From positions 1,412,217 through 1,476,216 of the forward strand of contig JAOPJY010000001.1 of assembly GCA_025517425.1 (NCBI GenBank): 64,000 nt of DNA, in the 5' to 3' direction. Positions 39,513 through 43,880 of this stretch are shown piece after piece (within the stretch, counting starts at the first letter, position 1; the number at the start of each line of letters is the position of its first letter). The translations under genes were made by a program, and so were the position numbers. This DNA comes from Halobacteria archaeon AArc-dxtr1 (GTDB taxonomy: Archaea; Halobacteriota; Halobacteria; Halobacteriales; Natrialbaceae). A model generated the notes under the pieces. The model was not told the origin of the DNA. It saw nothing but the letters and a program-made list of their open reading frames with translations, and ran no database searches.

Positions 39513-40643
39513 ATGGACGTGTGGGGGCTTCGGGCCCTGCTGTGTGTGGTTGTGGTGACTGGGTGTGTGGTCGCGGTGGGTCCGGTGGCTGTCGCGGCCG
39601 AGCCAGCCTCAGGTGTGACCGAATCGGCAGTCACTACGGAGACTCTACAGGAAGACGAGCCGTCGAGCGCTACGGTACAAGAAGACGTCTCCGCTGAAAC
39701 GACGCTCGAAAACGCCGACGAGATTTCCGTCCGTATCGACATCACGGAGAACGGATCGGCCACGCTCAGAGTCGATTATCGGTACGAACTAGAAGGAAAC
39801 GCGAGCGTCGACTGGGAAGCGATCGAGGACGACGTCGACGCGAACCCAGACGAGTACATCTCGGCGGAATCGGAGGGGTGGCAGGCAACCATCGAGCAGG
39901 CCGAGAACGAGACGGATCGGGAGATGGACCTCTCGAATGGGAACGTCACAACCGATCGAAGCCACTCGCCGGTCGAGCTTGGACACCTCCGATTCCAGTT
40001 CGACTGGTCTTCGTTCGCCTCGGTCGAACTGAACCGGATCGAGGCCGGCGACGCGCTTACAGGGTTCACGCTCGTCGATCGCGCACAGCTAACCCTGTCG
40101 TGGCCTGACGGGTACGAGGCCACAGCAATCGAACCTGGACCGACGACACAGGAGGAAACCTCAGTGACGTGGAACGGCGAGCAGTCGCCAGTCGGCGAAG
40201 ACGGACATCCACAGGTGGAGTTAATTGAGAGCGGCTCGTCATCAGCTGATCCTGAAAACGAACCGATCGGCGGTGAACTGATCTGGTGGAGCGTCGTGGT
40301 CGTCCTCGGCGGGGTGGGGATTGCCGTCTTCCTCGTGGCCAGACGATCGGACTGGCAACCCGGCGAATCGAACTCGAAGCCGACAGAGGCAGGGCCGGCG
40401 ACGGGACCAGAGCCCAAGACCACACAGACGCCACCACCGGAGCTGTTGAGCAACGAAGAGCGCGTCCTCCAGTTGCTCGAACAACACGGTGGGCGCCTCA
40501 AACAACAGCAGGTAGTTACCGAACTCGAGTGGACCGAGGCCAAGACCAGCCAGGTCGTCAGTGGCCTTCGAACGGCAGACGAGATCGACGTGTTCAGAAT
40601 CGGTCGCGAGAACGTGCTCGTCTTGCCCGAGGACGAGGACTGA
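39513..40643 (+). CDS. Membrane-anchored protein with C-terminal winged helix (transcription regulator-like)
   Basis: 376 residues. A signal peptide (1-29, ending AVAAEP) leads to an extracytoplasmic acidic beta-rich domain (30-250) with DUF7345-like character, one membrane helix (about 256-276, WWSVVVVLGGVGIAVFLV), a Pro/Thr linker, and a cytoplasmic winged helix (about 312-376, NEERVLQLLEQHGGRLKQQQ, WTEAKTSQVVSGL). This is the plan of a one-component membrane sensor that could carry an outside signal directly to DNA. Target genes are unknown; it precedes the arginine cluster but has its own promoter and nothing shows it controls that cluster. Confidence 0.78.
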   Translation: MDVWGLRALLCVVVVTGCVVAVGPVAVAAEPASGVTESAVTTETLQEDEPSSATVQEDVSAETTLENADEISVRIDITENGSATLRVDYRYELEGNASVDWEAIEDDVDANPDEYISAESEGWQATIEQAENETDREMDLSNGNVTTDRSHSPVELGHLRFQFDWSSFASVELNRIEAGDALTGFTLVDRAQLTLSWPDGYEATAIEPGPTTQEETSVTWNGEQSPVGEDGHPQVELIESGSSSADPENEPIGGELIWWSVVVVLGGVGIAVFLVARRSDWQPGESNSKPTEAGPATGPEPKTTQTPPPELLSNEERVLQLLEQHGGRLKQQQVVTELEWTEAKTSQVVSGLRTADEIDVFRIGRENVLVLPEDED

Positions 40644-40721
40644 TCACGAAAGAGACAGCCCAGCCATCTCGGCCGACGACGGAAAACCGCGAAGAAGGGC
40701 GTTCGAGGCCATCGAGAAGGA

Positions 40722-40727
40722 TTTAAG
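40722..40727 (+). promoter_or_regulatory. TATA box before the argG leader reading frame
   Basis: TTTAAG is centred 28 bases before ATG 40753, so a leaderless transcript starting on the 23-codon frame is expected. A second promoter (40932-40937) lies nearer argG. Confidence 0.5.
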
Positions 40728-40752
40728 TGTCTCGGGTTCGGTCTATCGGCCA

Positions 40753-40824
40753 ATGAGTCGATTCGTCGGTATCGGTCTCGCCACCGCCGAGACCGACCGG
40801 ACGGTCCGACGGCGGGCTCGTTGA
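40753..40824 (+). CDS. Putative Arg-rich leader peptide of the arginine operon
   Basis: 23-codon frame with ATG 28 bases from a TATA box. Six of 23 residues are Arg, including the end RRRAR, and the TGA stop (40822-40824) lies within the stem of a 7-base-pair hairpin. It is 143 bases before argG. The layout resembles bacterial leader-peptide attenuators in which Arg-tRNA level controls ribosome position. Not proven: such attenuation is not established in archaea, and high GC raises chance Arg codons. Confidence 0.45.
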   Translation: MSRFVGIGLATAETDRTVRRRAR

Positions 40825-40829
40825 GCCCG
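40784..40829 (+). promoter_or_regulatory. Mutually exclusive hairpins (possible attenuator) before argG
   Basis: Hairpin A: CCGCCG (40784-40789) pairs with CGGCGG (40810-40815), and inside it GACCG (40791-40795) pairs with CGGTC (40802-40806). Hairpin B: CGGGCTC (40813-40819), loop GTT, GAGCCCG (40823-40829), a perfect 7-base-pair stem. A and B share 40813-40815, so they exclude each other. A pyrimidine-rich tract CTATCCTTCCCCC follows B, but there is no long T run. Confidence 0.45.
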
Positions 40830-40931
40830 ATCTATCCTTCCCCCACTTCGACGTCGTCTTTCATCCCCAACCGCCCGGTGTTCCCGTCAGCGGACGTGCT
40901 GTGGATATTTTTCACAATTAAAACCAATGGA

Positions 40932-40937
40932 CTTAAG
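40932..40937 (+). promoter_or_regulatory. TATA box of argG
   Basis: CTTAAG is centred about 32 bases before ATG 40967, with an A/T-rich element just upstream (AATTAAAACC). It would give an almost leaderless argG mRNA and bypass the upstream leader. Confidence 0.55.
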
Positions 40938-40966
40938 CCCGCGCTACCGATTTTATCGAGTACGAT

Positions 40967-42160
40967 ATGTCACGCGTTGCACTCGCGTTCTCCGGCGGGC
41001 TCGACACGACGGTCTGTGTCCCGCTGTTAGAGGACGAGTACGGATACGACGACGTCATCGGCGTCACCGTCGACGTCGGACAGCCGGCCTCCGAGTTCGA
41101 CGAGGCCGAAGCAACCGCCGAGGCGCTCGGCTTAGAACACTACGTCGTCGACGCGCGGGAGGAATTCGCGCAGCTCTGTCTCGAGAGCGTCCGCGCGAAC
41201 GCGACCTACCAGGGCTACCCGCTCGGAACCGCTCTCGCTCGCCCGGTGATCGCCGAGGCGATTCTCGAGGTCGCCGAAGAGAACGGCTGCACCGGCATCG
41301 CCCACGGCTGTACGGGCAAAGGGAACGACCAGCTGCGATTCGAGGCCGTCTGGCGCGACTCCGACCTCGAGGTCATCGCCCCAGTCCGCGAACTCGGTCT
41401 GACCCGCGAGTGGGAACAGGAGTACGCCGCCGAGAAGGAACTGCCCGTCGAGGGCGGCAGCGGCGGCGACTGGTCGATCGACACGAACCTCTGGAGTCGC
41501 TCGGTCGAGGGCGACGACTTAGAGGACCCGAGCTACGTTCCTCCCGAGGATATCTACGACTGGACGCAGGCTCCCTCGGGCGAAACCGAAGAGATCGAGA
41601 TTTCCTTCGAGGAGGGCTACCCCGTCGCCATCGACGGCGAAGAGTACGAGCCGATCGCGCTCATCGAACACCTGAACGAGCTCGCCGGCCAGTACGGTGT
41701 CGGCCGCACTGACTCCATGGAAGACCGCATGCTCGGGCTCAAGGTTCGTGAGAACTACGAGCACCCGGCCGCGACGACCCTCCTGAACGCCCACGAGGCA
41801 TTAGAGGGGCTCGTCCTCACCCAGGAGGAACGCGAGTTCAAGCAACTCGTCGACCAGCGCTGGTCGAAGAAGGGCTACGAGGGACTCATCGACGCGCCGC
41901 TCGTCGGCGCGCTCGAGGGCTTCATCGCCGAGACCCAAAAGCGCGTCACCGGCACCGTCACGATTCGCTTCGAGGGCGGGCAGGCTCGCGCAGTCGGCCG
42001 CGACAGCCCCTACGCCGCGTACTCCGCCGAACACGCCTCCTTCGACACCGAGTCCGTCGGCAAGATCGCCCAGGAGGACGCCACCGGCGTCGCGAAGTAC
42101 CACGGTTTCCAGCGTCGCCTCGCAAACGAGTCGATCGCGGCGCTCGAGGACGAGGAGTAA
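40967..42160 (+). CDS. argG: Argininosuccinate synthase
   Basis: 397-residue ATP-dependent ligase joining citrulline and aspartate. The PP-loop AFSGGLDTTV near the N-terminus, TVDVGQP and HGCTGKGNDQLRFE in the nucleotide/citrulline site, and SIDTNLWSRS are typical. Full length. argH follows one base after the stop. It is the first gene of the arginine cluster and lies behind a possible attenuator. Confidence 0.97.
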   Translation: MSRVALAFSGGLDTTVCVPLLEDEYGYDDVIGVTVDVGQPASEFDEAEATAEALGLEHYVVDAREEFAQLCLESVRANATYQGYPLGTALARPVIAEAILEVAEENGCTGIAHGCTGKGNDQLRFEAVWRDSDLEVIAPVRELGLTREWEQEYAAEKELPVEGGSGGDWSIDTNLWSRSVEGDDLEDPSYVPPEDIYDWTQAPSGETEEIEISFEEGYPVAIDGEEYEPIALIEHLNELAGQYGVGRTDSMEDRMLGLKVRENYEHPAATTLLNAHEALEGLVLTQEEREFKQLVDQRWSKKGYEGLIDAPLVGALEGFIAETQKRVTGTVTIRFEGGQARAVGRDSPYAAYSAEHASFDTESVGKIAQEDATGVAKYHGFQRRLANESIAALEDEE

Positions 42161-42161
42161 A

Positions 42162-43697
42162 ATGACCGGAGAGGAAGCCGCCGACGGACCGGACGAGGGT
42201 ACGAGCAGTGTCGACGAGACCGACGACGCGGTCTCGAGCGACGCCTCGCAGCCGAATCCCGGCCAGGGTGTCGTCCGCCGCGATCGCTTCGCCGGCGGCC
42301 CGGCCCGCGGCTTTCTCTCCTCGCTCGCAGCCGACGAGCGGATCTTCGCAGCCGATCTGGCGGTCGACCGCGCCCACGTCGTGATGCTCGCAGAGTGCGG
42401 GATCATCGACGACGAGACGGCCGGTGAGATCCTCCAGGCGCTCGAGGCAGTCGCTGACGAGGGCCATACCGCCCTCCCCGAGGGCGAGGACGTCCACGAA
42501 GCGATCGAGACGGCGGTCATCGATCAGATCGGCGCGGACGGCGGGAAGATGCACACCGCCCGCTCGCGAAACGACGAGGTCGCGGCCTGCATCCGCTACC
42601 GGCTGCGCGAGGATGTCCTCCGGACGATCGAGACGACGCTCGCGCTCCGCGAGACGTTACTCGAGACAGCCGCCGAGCACGACGAGACGATCATGCCCGG
42701 CTACACGCACCTCCAGCCCGCCCAGCCGACCACGGTGGCCCACTGGGCGCTGGCCTACGAGGGCGCGATCGCCCGCGATACGGCGCGCCTGCTCGACGCC
42801 TACGGCCGGATCAACGAGTCGCCGTTGGGCGGGGCCGCGTTCGCCGGCACGCCGTTCGACATCGACCGCGAGCGCACGGCCGAACTGCTCGGCTTCGACG
42901 GTATCGTCGAGAATTCGATGGACGCATCCTCGAGTCGGGACTTCTTACTCGAGGCGACACAGGCGCTGTCGACACACGCGACGACGCTGTCGGGGCTCGC
43001 CGAGGACGTGATCGTCTTCGCGAACCGCGGCTTCGTCGACCTCTCGGACGACTATTCCTCGACCTCGTCGATCATGCCCCAGAAGAAGAATCCCGACACG
43101 CTCGAACTCGTCCGCGCGGTCGCGGGCGACGCCGCCGGCAGCGTCCAGGGACTGACGACGACGCTCAAGGGCCTACCCCGCGCGTATAACCGCGACCTCC
43201 AGCGCGCGACGCCCCACGCCTGGGAGACCGTCGATGCGGTGACGCAGGCGAGCGAAGTCGCCGCCGGCGCGGTCGCGACGGCCGACTGGAACGACGAGGC
43301 GCTGGCCGACGAGGCCGGCGCGGGCTTCTCGACGGCGACCGGCGTCGCCGACCTGCTCGCAATGGCCGGAGTTCCGTTCCGAACGGCCCACGAGATCGTC
43401 GCCATCGCAGCCGAGAACGGGGGCGACTACGACGCGATCGAGGCCGCCGTCGAGGACGTACTCGGCGACCCCCTCGAGTCGCTGGTCGAGCCCGAAGCGG
43501 TCGAAGACGCACTCGACCCCGAGACCAGCGTGTCGAGTCGCGACTCGACCGGCGGCCCGGCCCCCGAGGCCGTGGCCGCCCAGCGCGAGTCGGCTCGCGA
43601 GCAGCTCGCCGACGACCGCACGGAACTCGAGGCCCGTGAGGCGTCGCTTTCAAACGCACACCGCACACTCCGCACGGAGGTGGACGAATATGTCTGA
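42162..43697 (+). CDS. argH: Argininosuccinate lyase
   Basis: 511-residue fumarase-superfamily enzyme that splits argininosuccinate into arginine and fumarate. HTARSRNDEVAA, the active loop SSIMPQKKNPDTLELVR and the helix-rich body are intact. An acidic N-terminal extension of about 40 residues precedes the catalytic core. It is followed by a 216-base gap with a new promoter before lysW. Confidence 0.97.
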   Translation: MTGEEAADGPDEGTSSVDETDDAVSSDASQPNPGQGVVRRDRFAGGPARGFLSSLAADERIFAADLAVDRAHVVMLAECGIIDDETAGEILQALEAVADEGHTALPEGEDVHEAIETAVIDQIGADGGKMHTARSRNDEVAACIRYRLREDVLRTIETTLALRETLLETAAEHDETIMPGYTHLQPAQPTTVAHWALAYEGAIARDTARLLDAYGRINESPLGGAAFAGTPFDIDRERTAELLGFDGIVENSMDASSSRDFLLEATQALSTHATTLSGLAEDVIVFANRGFVDLSDDYSSTSSIMPQKKNPDTLELVRAVAGDAAGSVQGLTTTLKGLPRAYNRDLQRATPHAWETVDAVTQASEVAAGAVATADWNDEALADEAGAGFSTATGVADLLAMAGVPFRTAHEIVAIAAENGGDYDAIEAAVEDVLGDPLESLVEPEAVEDALDPETSVSSRDSTGGPAPEAVAAQRESAREQLADDRTELEAREASLSNAHRTLRTEVDEYV

Positions 43698-43880
43698 GCT
43701 GGTTTCAGGGTTCATTCTCGACGCGGGCGGTCACATTCGACGGCCCCGGCGACGGCGATCCCCGCGAGGGGATAACCTACCTACTACGTGATAATTCAAA
43801 TAAAACCCGGCAAAGAACCGCATCGACGCACCGTTAGAGTGGACTGCGGATAGTATAATTTCGCTGTTAAGTTCGAAGGG

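Follow-up and report, generated by a model that had tools for sequence, protein, structure and literature searches.

In the window, which is the whole 64,000-nt stretch of DNA from Halobacteria archaeon AArc-dxtr1 that was analysed, the argG gene for argininosuccinate synthase (40967..42160) is the first gene of an operon with the order argG-argH-argW-argX-argC-argB-argD. The nearest relatives of this argG by DNA are those of Natrialbaceae. The parts of the window described here lie on the plus strand, except for a palindrome to which no strand is assigned. It was confirmed that a promoter-linked frame of 23 codons with six Arg, ending RRRAR, precedes the operon, as the original prediction had it. 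This leader ORF encodes MSRFVGIGLATAETDRTVRRRAR followed by TGA (40753..40824; ATG from 40753, TGA at 40822-40824) and lies 142 nt upstream of the argG ATG at 40967. A TATA-like box, TTTAAG (40722..40727), the likely leader promoter, is located 31 nt upstream of the leader ATG, and this spacing would imply a leaderless transcript starting from the ATG or near it. The last sense codons, CGA CGG CGG GCT CGT (40807..40821), are regarded as control codons on the basis of the codon bias in the tails of related leaders, and an additional CGG codon lies at 40798-40800. A hairpin inside the ORF, P1 (TCGGTCTCG/CGAGACCGA, nine pairs, 40772..40796), is found upstream of the Arg run, and a second hairpin, P2 (CGGGCTC-GTT-GAGCCCG, seven pairs, 40813..40829), has the stop codon at its loop and 3′ arm. 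Directly 3′ of P2 lies a G-free, pyrimidine-rich tract (40830..40849), which is G-free in most relatives too. Further downstream are an AT-rich palindrome, TGTG-N9-CACA (TGTGGATATTTTTCACA, 40900..40916), and another TATA-like box, CTTAAG (40932..40937), that of the second, argG-proximal promoter.

Is such a leader common among haloarchaea? The sequence preceding argG was gathered for 40 relatives and for 80 named GTDB genomes, which include Natronorubrum, Natrinema, Natrialba, Haloterrigena, Halorussus, Haloferax, Halogeometricum, Haloglomus, Natronomonas, and Halegenticoccus, and 87 leaders were curated. Nearly every haloarchaeal argG examined has a leaderless ORF of about 23-31 codons upstream, whose Arg-rich end (for instance RRPRRPRPGL, RRRRPGR, RPRRRAL, or RRRPGSP) abuts a small GC hairpin, so that the conservation of the Arg-codon leader that had been proposed as a check was borne out. 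The distance between the curated leader and argG is about 100-220 nt. A TATA-like box lies upstream of the leader start in 82 of the 87 and at position -29 to -33 in 81 of the 87, a spacing that fits a leaderless leader transcript. Leaderless transcripts are the main kind in Haloferax (PMC4983044). The stop codon is inside the P2 hairpin, usually in its loop, in 77 leaders, just 3′ of it in four, and further downstream in six. The last six belong to some Natronorubrum, Salinadaptatus, and one other, and their frame extends beyond P2. In the leaders that have lost the stop codon in P2 (L014/L048, L041, L042, L044, and L020), the Arg run and the hairpin are kept, and the frame continues for about 15-20 codons. 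The G-free tract after P2 is about 17 nt in relatives; no G is found in the 16 nt after P2 in 71/87 leaders versus 20/261 downstream control stretches. The tract is not U-rich. It is a third conserved part of the leader and plausibly a loading or release site. As for the second promoter nearer argG, it is present in the sequence as predicted but is not universal, since a TTAA box near argG occurs in about 63 of the 87 loci and Halorussus-type loci, for example, are without it. In Natrialbaceae relatives, an AT-rich sequence related to the palindrome occurs at the same place upstream of argG, and the palindrome is a candidate operator for a transcription factor.

A covariance model, R1, was built from the tail, the hairpin, and the tract. 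Matches were obtained in 86 of 116 haloarchaeal genomes, representing 38 of 46 genera, and rarely more than once in a genome; all of the 30 best matches are upstream of argG. The E-values of the model are rough. The second or off-target matches at L333, L335, L337, L338, and L346 look like chance, most of them lying within long open frames. The anatomy was also expressed as three ORF criteria, namely at least three CGA/CGG codons in the last eight codons, a stop codon within a hairpin that has 5 bp or more, and a tract poor in G thereafter. The 80 named argG loci contain 1292 short ATG ORFs when both strands are counted; 56 of these combine all three features, and all 56 are the argG leader. 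The anatomy of the argG leader is far beyond chance. No Rfam family matching the arg leader site was found.

The codon choice in the Arg tail is peculiar. The tail Arg codons are CGA (259), CGG (131), CGC (7), CGT (5), AGG (4), and AGA (1), while the non-tail Arg codons of the same leaders are CGC (62), CGT (45), CGG (23), CGA (20), AGG (5), and AGA (3). Thus, CGA and CGG make up 390/407 (about 95%) of the tail codons versus 43/158 (27%) elsewhere in the leaders; they make up about 9% of the Arg codons in argG itself (CGC 73%, CGT 17%, CGG 7%, CGA 2%). The Fisher p for the tail-versus-rest bias is about 5e-64 with related sequences treated as independent, and because the leaders are related, this value overstates the number of independent events. 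Neither ancestry nor base composition accounts for the contrast between the tail and the rest within one ORF. When tail codons differ between related species, the difference is synonymous in 49% of cases if read in the ORF frame but in 9% and 19% if read in the others, which indicates that the peptide frame is under selection there. A biased choice of control codons is also known for bacterial attenuators, where theory and data explain it by the selective charging of isoacceptors (PMC1183508).

A probable second copy of the Arg-codon leader lies inside the operon. Its ORF, MSELVSGFILDAGGHIRRPRRRRSPRGDNLPTT (43690..43791), is located between argH and argW, and its ATG overlaps the argH stop codon (ATGTCTGA). 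Its run RRPRRRR is encoded, the Pro codon aside, by CGA and CGG alone. At the end of this run lies a hairpin, ATCCCC-GCGA-GGGGAT (43758..43773), followed by a G-free tract (43774-43787). Of 74 loci, 60 have an equivalent hairpin following argH, and 81% (159/196) of the tail Arg codons at this place are CGA or CGG. One additional R1 match, in L339, appears genuine; it is located in the gap between argH and argX. The second copy is rated only as probable because the Arg frame is less consistent there, and judging from these sequence features, the chance that 43690-43791 is a second leader copy may be put at about even.

It was revealed that ilvB has a sister leader. Of 20 ilvB loci, 15 have the same anatomy before the gene, with an ORF of about 26-33 codons and a TATA-like or AT-rich box. 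The control codons in this case are ATT GTA GGG, and the leaders end with, for example, ..IIVGAA, ..AIVGAV, or ..IRIVGAL. ATT accounts for 19 of 23 Ile codons and GTA for 15 of 18 Val codons among the control codons, and each makes up 5% of the respective codons within ilvB. The stop codon is mostly in the loop of a GGGGC/GCCCC hairpin, and a G-poor tract follows. The ilvB leader of the same genome, MRTPVQESTASVDSSTSISLAIVGAA, with the hairpin AGGGGC-GGCCTA-GCCCCT, lies outside the window (locus L209, G000:C1 ~1108364-1108463). The amino acid in the leader matches the operon product in two unrelated pathways, and this match is a signature of charged-tRNA sensing. A blind scan of 13 genomes for GGGC-loop-GCCC followed by 16 non-G residues, with the reversed pattern as the control, gave 0-5 matches per genome, a total not above that of the control; among the matches, an ilvB leader turns up in most genomes and the argG leader in three. 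The same leader type was not found before trpC, trpD, hisG, hisB, the homoserine dehydrogenase gene, or leuA by simple ORF and hairpin tests; the trp, his, homoserine dehydrogenase, and leuA scans covered the arg-type leader design only, and their automatic orientation failed at a few loci. Upstream of trpD (L242-L245), a TATA-linked short ORF, MYSFGHCKTTTYIGVYYAGVRRTGD, was seen.

How may the hairpin respond to the ribosome? The original prediction had drawn two mutually exclusive hairpins. One of them, the perfect 7-pair hairpin over the last codons and the stop codon, is P2 and was recovered at exactly 40813-40829, with a probability of 0.99 in the whole leader. The other, an 11-pair hairpin at 40784-40815, can be drawn and has -18.5 kcal/mol as a segment alone, but its probability in the whole leader is 0.00. 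The exclusive pair was therefore given up, since one partner is absent in context and a ribosome on the early codons leaves P2 intact. An antiterminator between P1 and P2 was likewise rejected on the 0.00 probability of 40784-40815 and on the sparing of P2 by an early ribosome in most leaders. P1, whose arms are 40772-40780 and 40788-40796, competes with the 11-pair hairpin and has a probability of 0.92 in the leader context; relatives have hairpins of unrelated sequence at this place (mean z -1.1, 86 sequences), and folding thus moderately supports P1 across them. P1 may pace the ribosome or keep the Arg run free. Covariation of the stems was another proposed check. That of P2 is modest on an automatic alignment; the stem is kept with several sequences. 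The weak signal arises because the stem is GC-conserved and because MAFFT shifts it by one column in several rows, and an inventory of the stem sequences is therefore the better statement. The shape of P2 is kept with GGGCC/GGCCC, GGCCC/GGGCC, GGGGC/GCCCC, GGGGTCT/AGACCCC, and GACCCC/GGGGTC.

The ribosome was modelled with a footprint from -15 to +13 around the A site. The predicted pairing of P2 has a median of 0.98 with the ribosome on early codons and is about 0 with the footprint on the middle or the last Arg codon. In the model, P2 is lost only once the A site is within about 11 nt (median) of it, and the distance from the last tail Arg codon to P2 has a median of 4 nt. Because P2 would be lost only near the A site, the model points to direct occlusion by a stalled ribosome and not to a hairpin switch; P2 itself would lie under a ribosome waiting at the tail Arg codons, which would make an antiterminator unnecessary. 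The folding of P2 is thus predicted to depend on the position of the ribosome, as is expected of an attenuator.

In haloarchaea, the leader probably acts as a ribosome-mediated attenuator that controls the arginine operon. The core idea of the prediction, an Arg-codon leader that senses charged tRNA, is strongly supported by the conservation, by the rare codons confined to the tail, and by the ilvB sister leader. A leaderless mRNA would begin at the leader ATG. With ample Arg-tRNA, the ribosome would read the rare CGA and CGG codons, end at the stop codon in or beside P2, and depart; P2 would then fold, and P2 and the G-free tract would stop the transcript upstream of argG. This stop may be brought about by termination, either hairpin-aided or dependent on FttA, or possibly by cleavage of the RNA. 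If the Arg-tRNA of the minor isoacceptors is short, the ribosome would wait while its A site is no more than about 11 nt from P2, covering the 5′ arm of P2; P2 would remain unfolded, and the operon would be transcribed. The occlusion of P2 is a result of modelling; the translation of the leader, the stalling, the termination step (or RNA decay), and the sign of the control are what I infer. In Haloferax volcanii, 59% of transcripts are reported to be terminated by one hairpin (PMC7237163). It has been proposed that a coupled ribosome excludes FttA-dependent termination (PMC8116511, PMC11616081). Several points stand against an attenuator: the tract after P2 is unlike the T-stretch typical of haloarchaeal terminators, whereas the RNA that FttA prefers is described as U-rich (PMC11616081); the stop codon is lost from P2 in six of the 87 leaders; the second promoter downstream of P2 in many loci would bypass the control; the covariation of P2 is modest; and the scans before the trp, his, homoserine dehydrogenase, and leuA genes found no such leader.

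The departure of the G-free tract from the canonical T-stretch also lends some weight to a post-transcriptional role of the leader, in which the position of the ribosome would set the cutting or decay of RNA at P2 and the tract, or the access of ribosomes to argG. RNA-processing sites have been mapped genome-wide in haloarchaea (PMC8303175), and argG is only about 100-160 nt downstream. However, nothing was seen to sequester the argG start, and where the second promoter is lacking, argG is preceded by a long CA-rich stretch; such a role is rather unlikely. The sensing half would be identical in that case. It was also considered that the nascent Arg/Pro-rich peptide stalls the ribosome or senses free arginine, instead of tRNA-Arg charging. 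Polybasic and Pro-rich stretches slow ribosomes, and leaders such as the one ending RRPRRPRPGL contain both, but a peptide sensor does not need the tail-only synonymous selection of CGA/CGG over CGC/CGT, and the ilv leader is an unrelated peptide with its own rare codons; this explanation is very improbable. Still less credible is that a regulator binds the conserved element as DNA or RNA, the ORF being incidental, as the conserved GC-rich core and the separate AT-rich palindrome adjoining the argG promoter might suggest. Against it speak the frame-dependent synonymous substitution, the fixed TATA-to-ATG spacing of about 30 nt, the variation among leaders in how many Arg codons occur and in what order, and the codons at ilvB that match the product of that operon.

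The attenuator reading of the haloarchaeal leader can be compared with known systems. The bacterial attenuators (trp, his, leu, ilv, and thr leaders) likewise have a short leader ORF between the promoter and an amino-acid operon, codons for the pathway product with an unusual synonymous choice, a hairpin immediately downstream, and product-matched codons across different operons of one genome. In contrast to them, the haloarchaeal leader belongs to an archaeal host, is on a leaderless mRNA, and usually has its stop codon within the hairpin; its control codons abut the output hairpin, the antiterminator by which the classical kind is defined was not found, and a G-free C/U/A tract of about 17 nt takes the place of a U-tract. 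In the Rho-dependent type of Escherichia coli tnaC, a ribosome is parked near the end of a short ORF with a G-poor, C-rich tract just behind. By analogy, the haloarchaeal leader would resemble this type in having a ribosome near the end of the ORF and a G-poor tract behind it, while it differs in the hairpin between the codons and the tract. The archaeal analogue of Rho is proposed to be FttA/aCPSF1, which is not homologous to it (PMC11616081). Taken together, I slightly favour an archaeal attenuation common to arg (probably twice) and ilv, which would act by direct occlusion of the hairpin, with no antiterminator, and probably through FttA-linked termination.

A search of the open literature, with subscription journals mostly outside its scope, found no report of ribosome-mediated amino-acid attenuation in archaea. 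Haloferax volcanii has uORFs of 15-31 amino acids in long 5′-UTRs, some with a second transcription start (PMC4983044). The 16 uORFs listed there include neither argG (HVO_0049 in this species) nor ilvB, and the part of that report dealing with them proposes no codon-based sensing. If the attenuator is true, archaea too use coupled transcription and translation to sense nutrients, whether through convergence or from deep ancestry. The leader would then allow archaeal transcription-translation coupling and FttA-dependent termination, whose relation has so far only been hypothesised (PMC8116511, PMC11616081), to be studied in a natural setting on a specific gene. Haloferax relatives carry the leader, which makes it directly testable in a tractable organism.

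The leuA-Halobacteria RNA (Rfam RF03001) is likewise a haloarchaeal cis-regulatory element upstream of a leuA-type gene, but it differs from the arg leader in sequence and structure and has no Leu codon run. The RF03001 model did not match anywhere in 40600-41100 with E allowed up to 5, and at the gathering score it had no match in the whole window. It does match at the other leuA-type gene of the same genome, where the element too lies within a short leaderless ORF. At locus L135 (1373-1425), the surrounding ORF is MARDTLSTPYAEDRGSRGDPAGREIPRRH, which is conserved in relatives, and the RF03001 motif may also be a leader-peptide element. At the leuA gene of the ilvB-upstream loci (L121-L132; G000:C1 ~1107.0k in the same genome), the only good ATG is out of frame, so that a +1 shift is needed. 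The start problem of leuA and possible ribosomal slippage when leucine is lacking have already been noted (PMC8305020). This out-of-frame ATG carries the ultraconserved sequence GGTCGAGTTCTTCCAGGGCAC.
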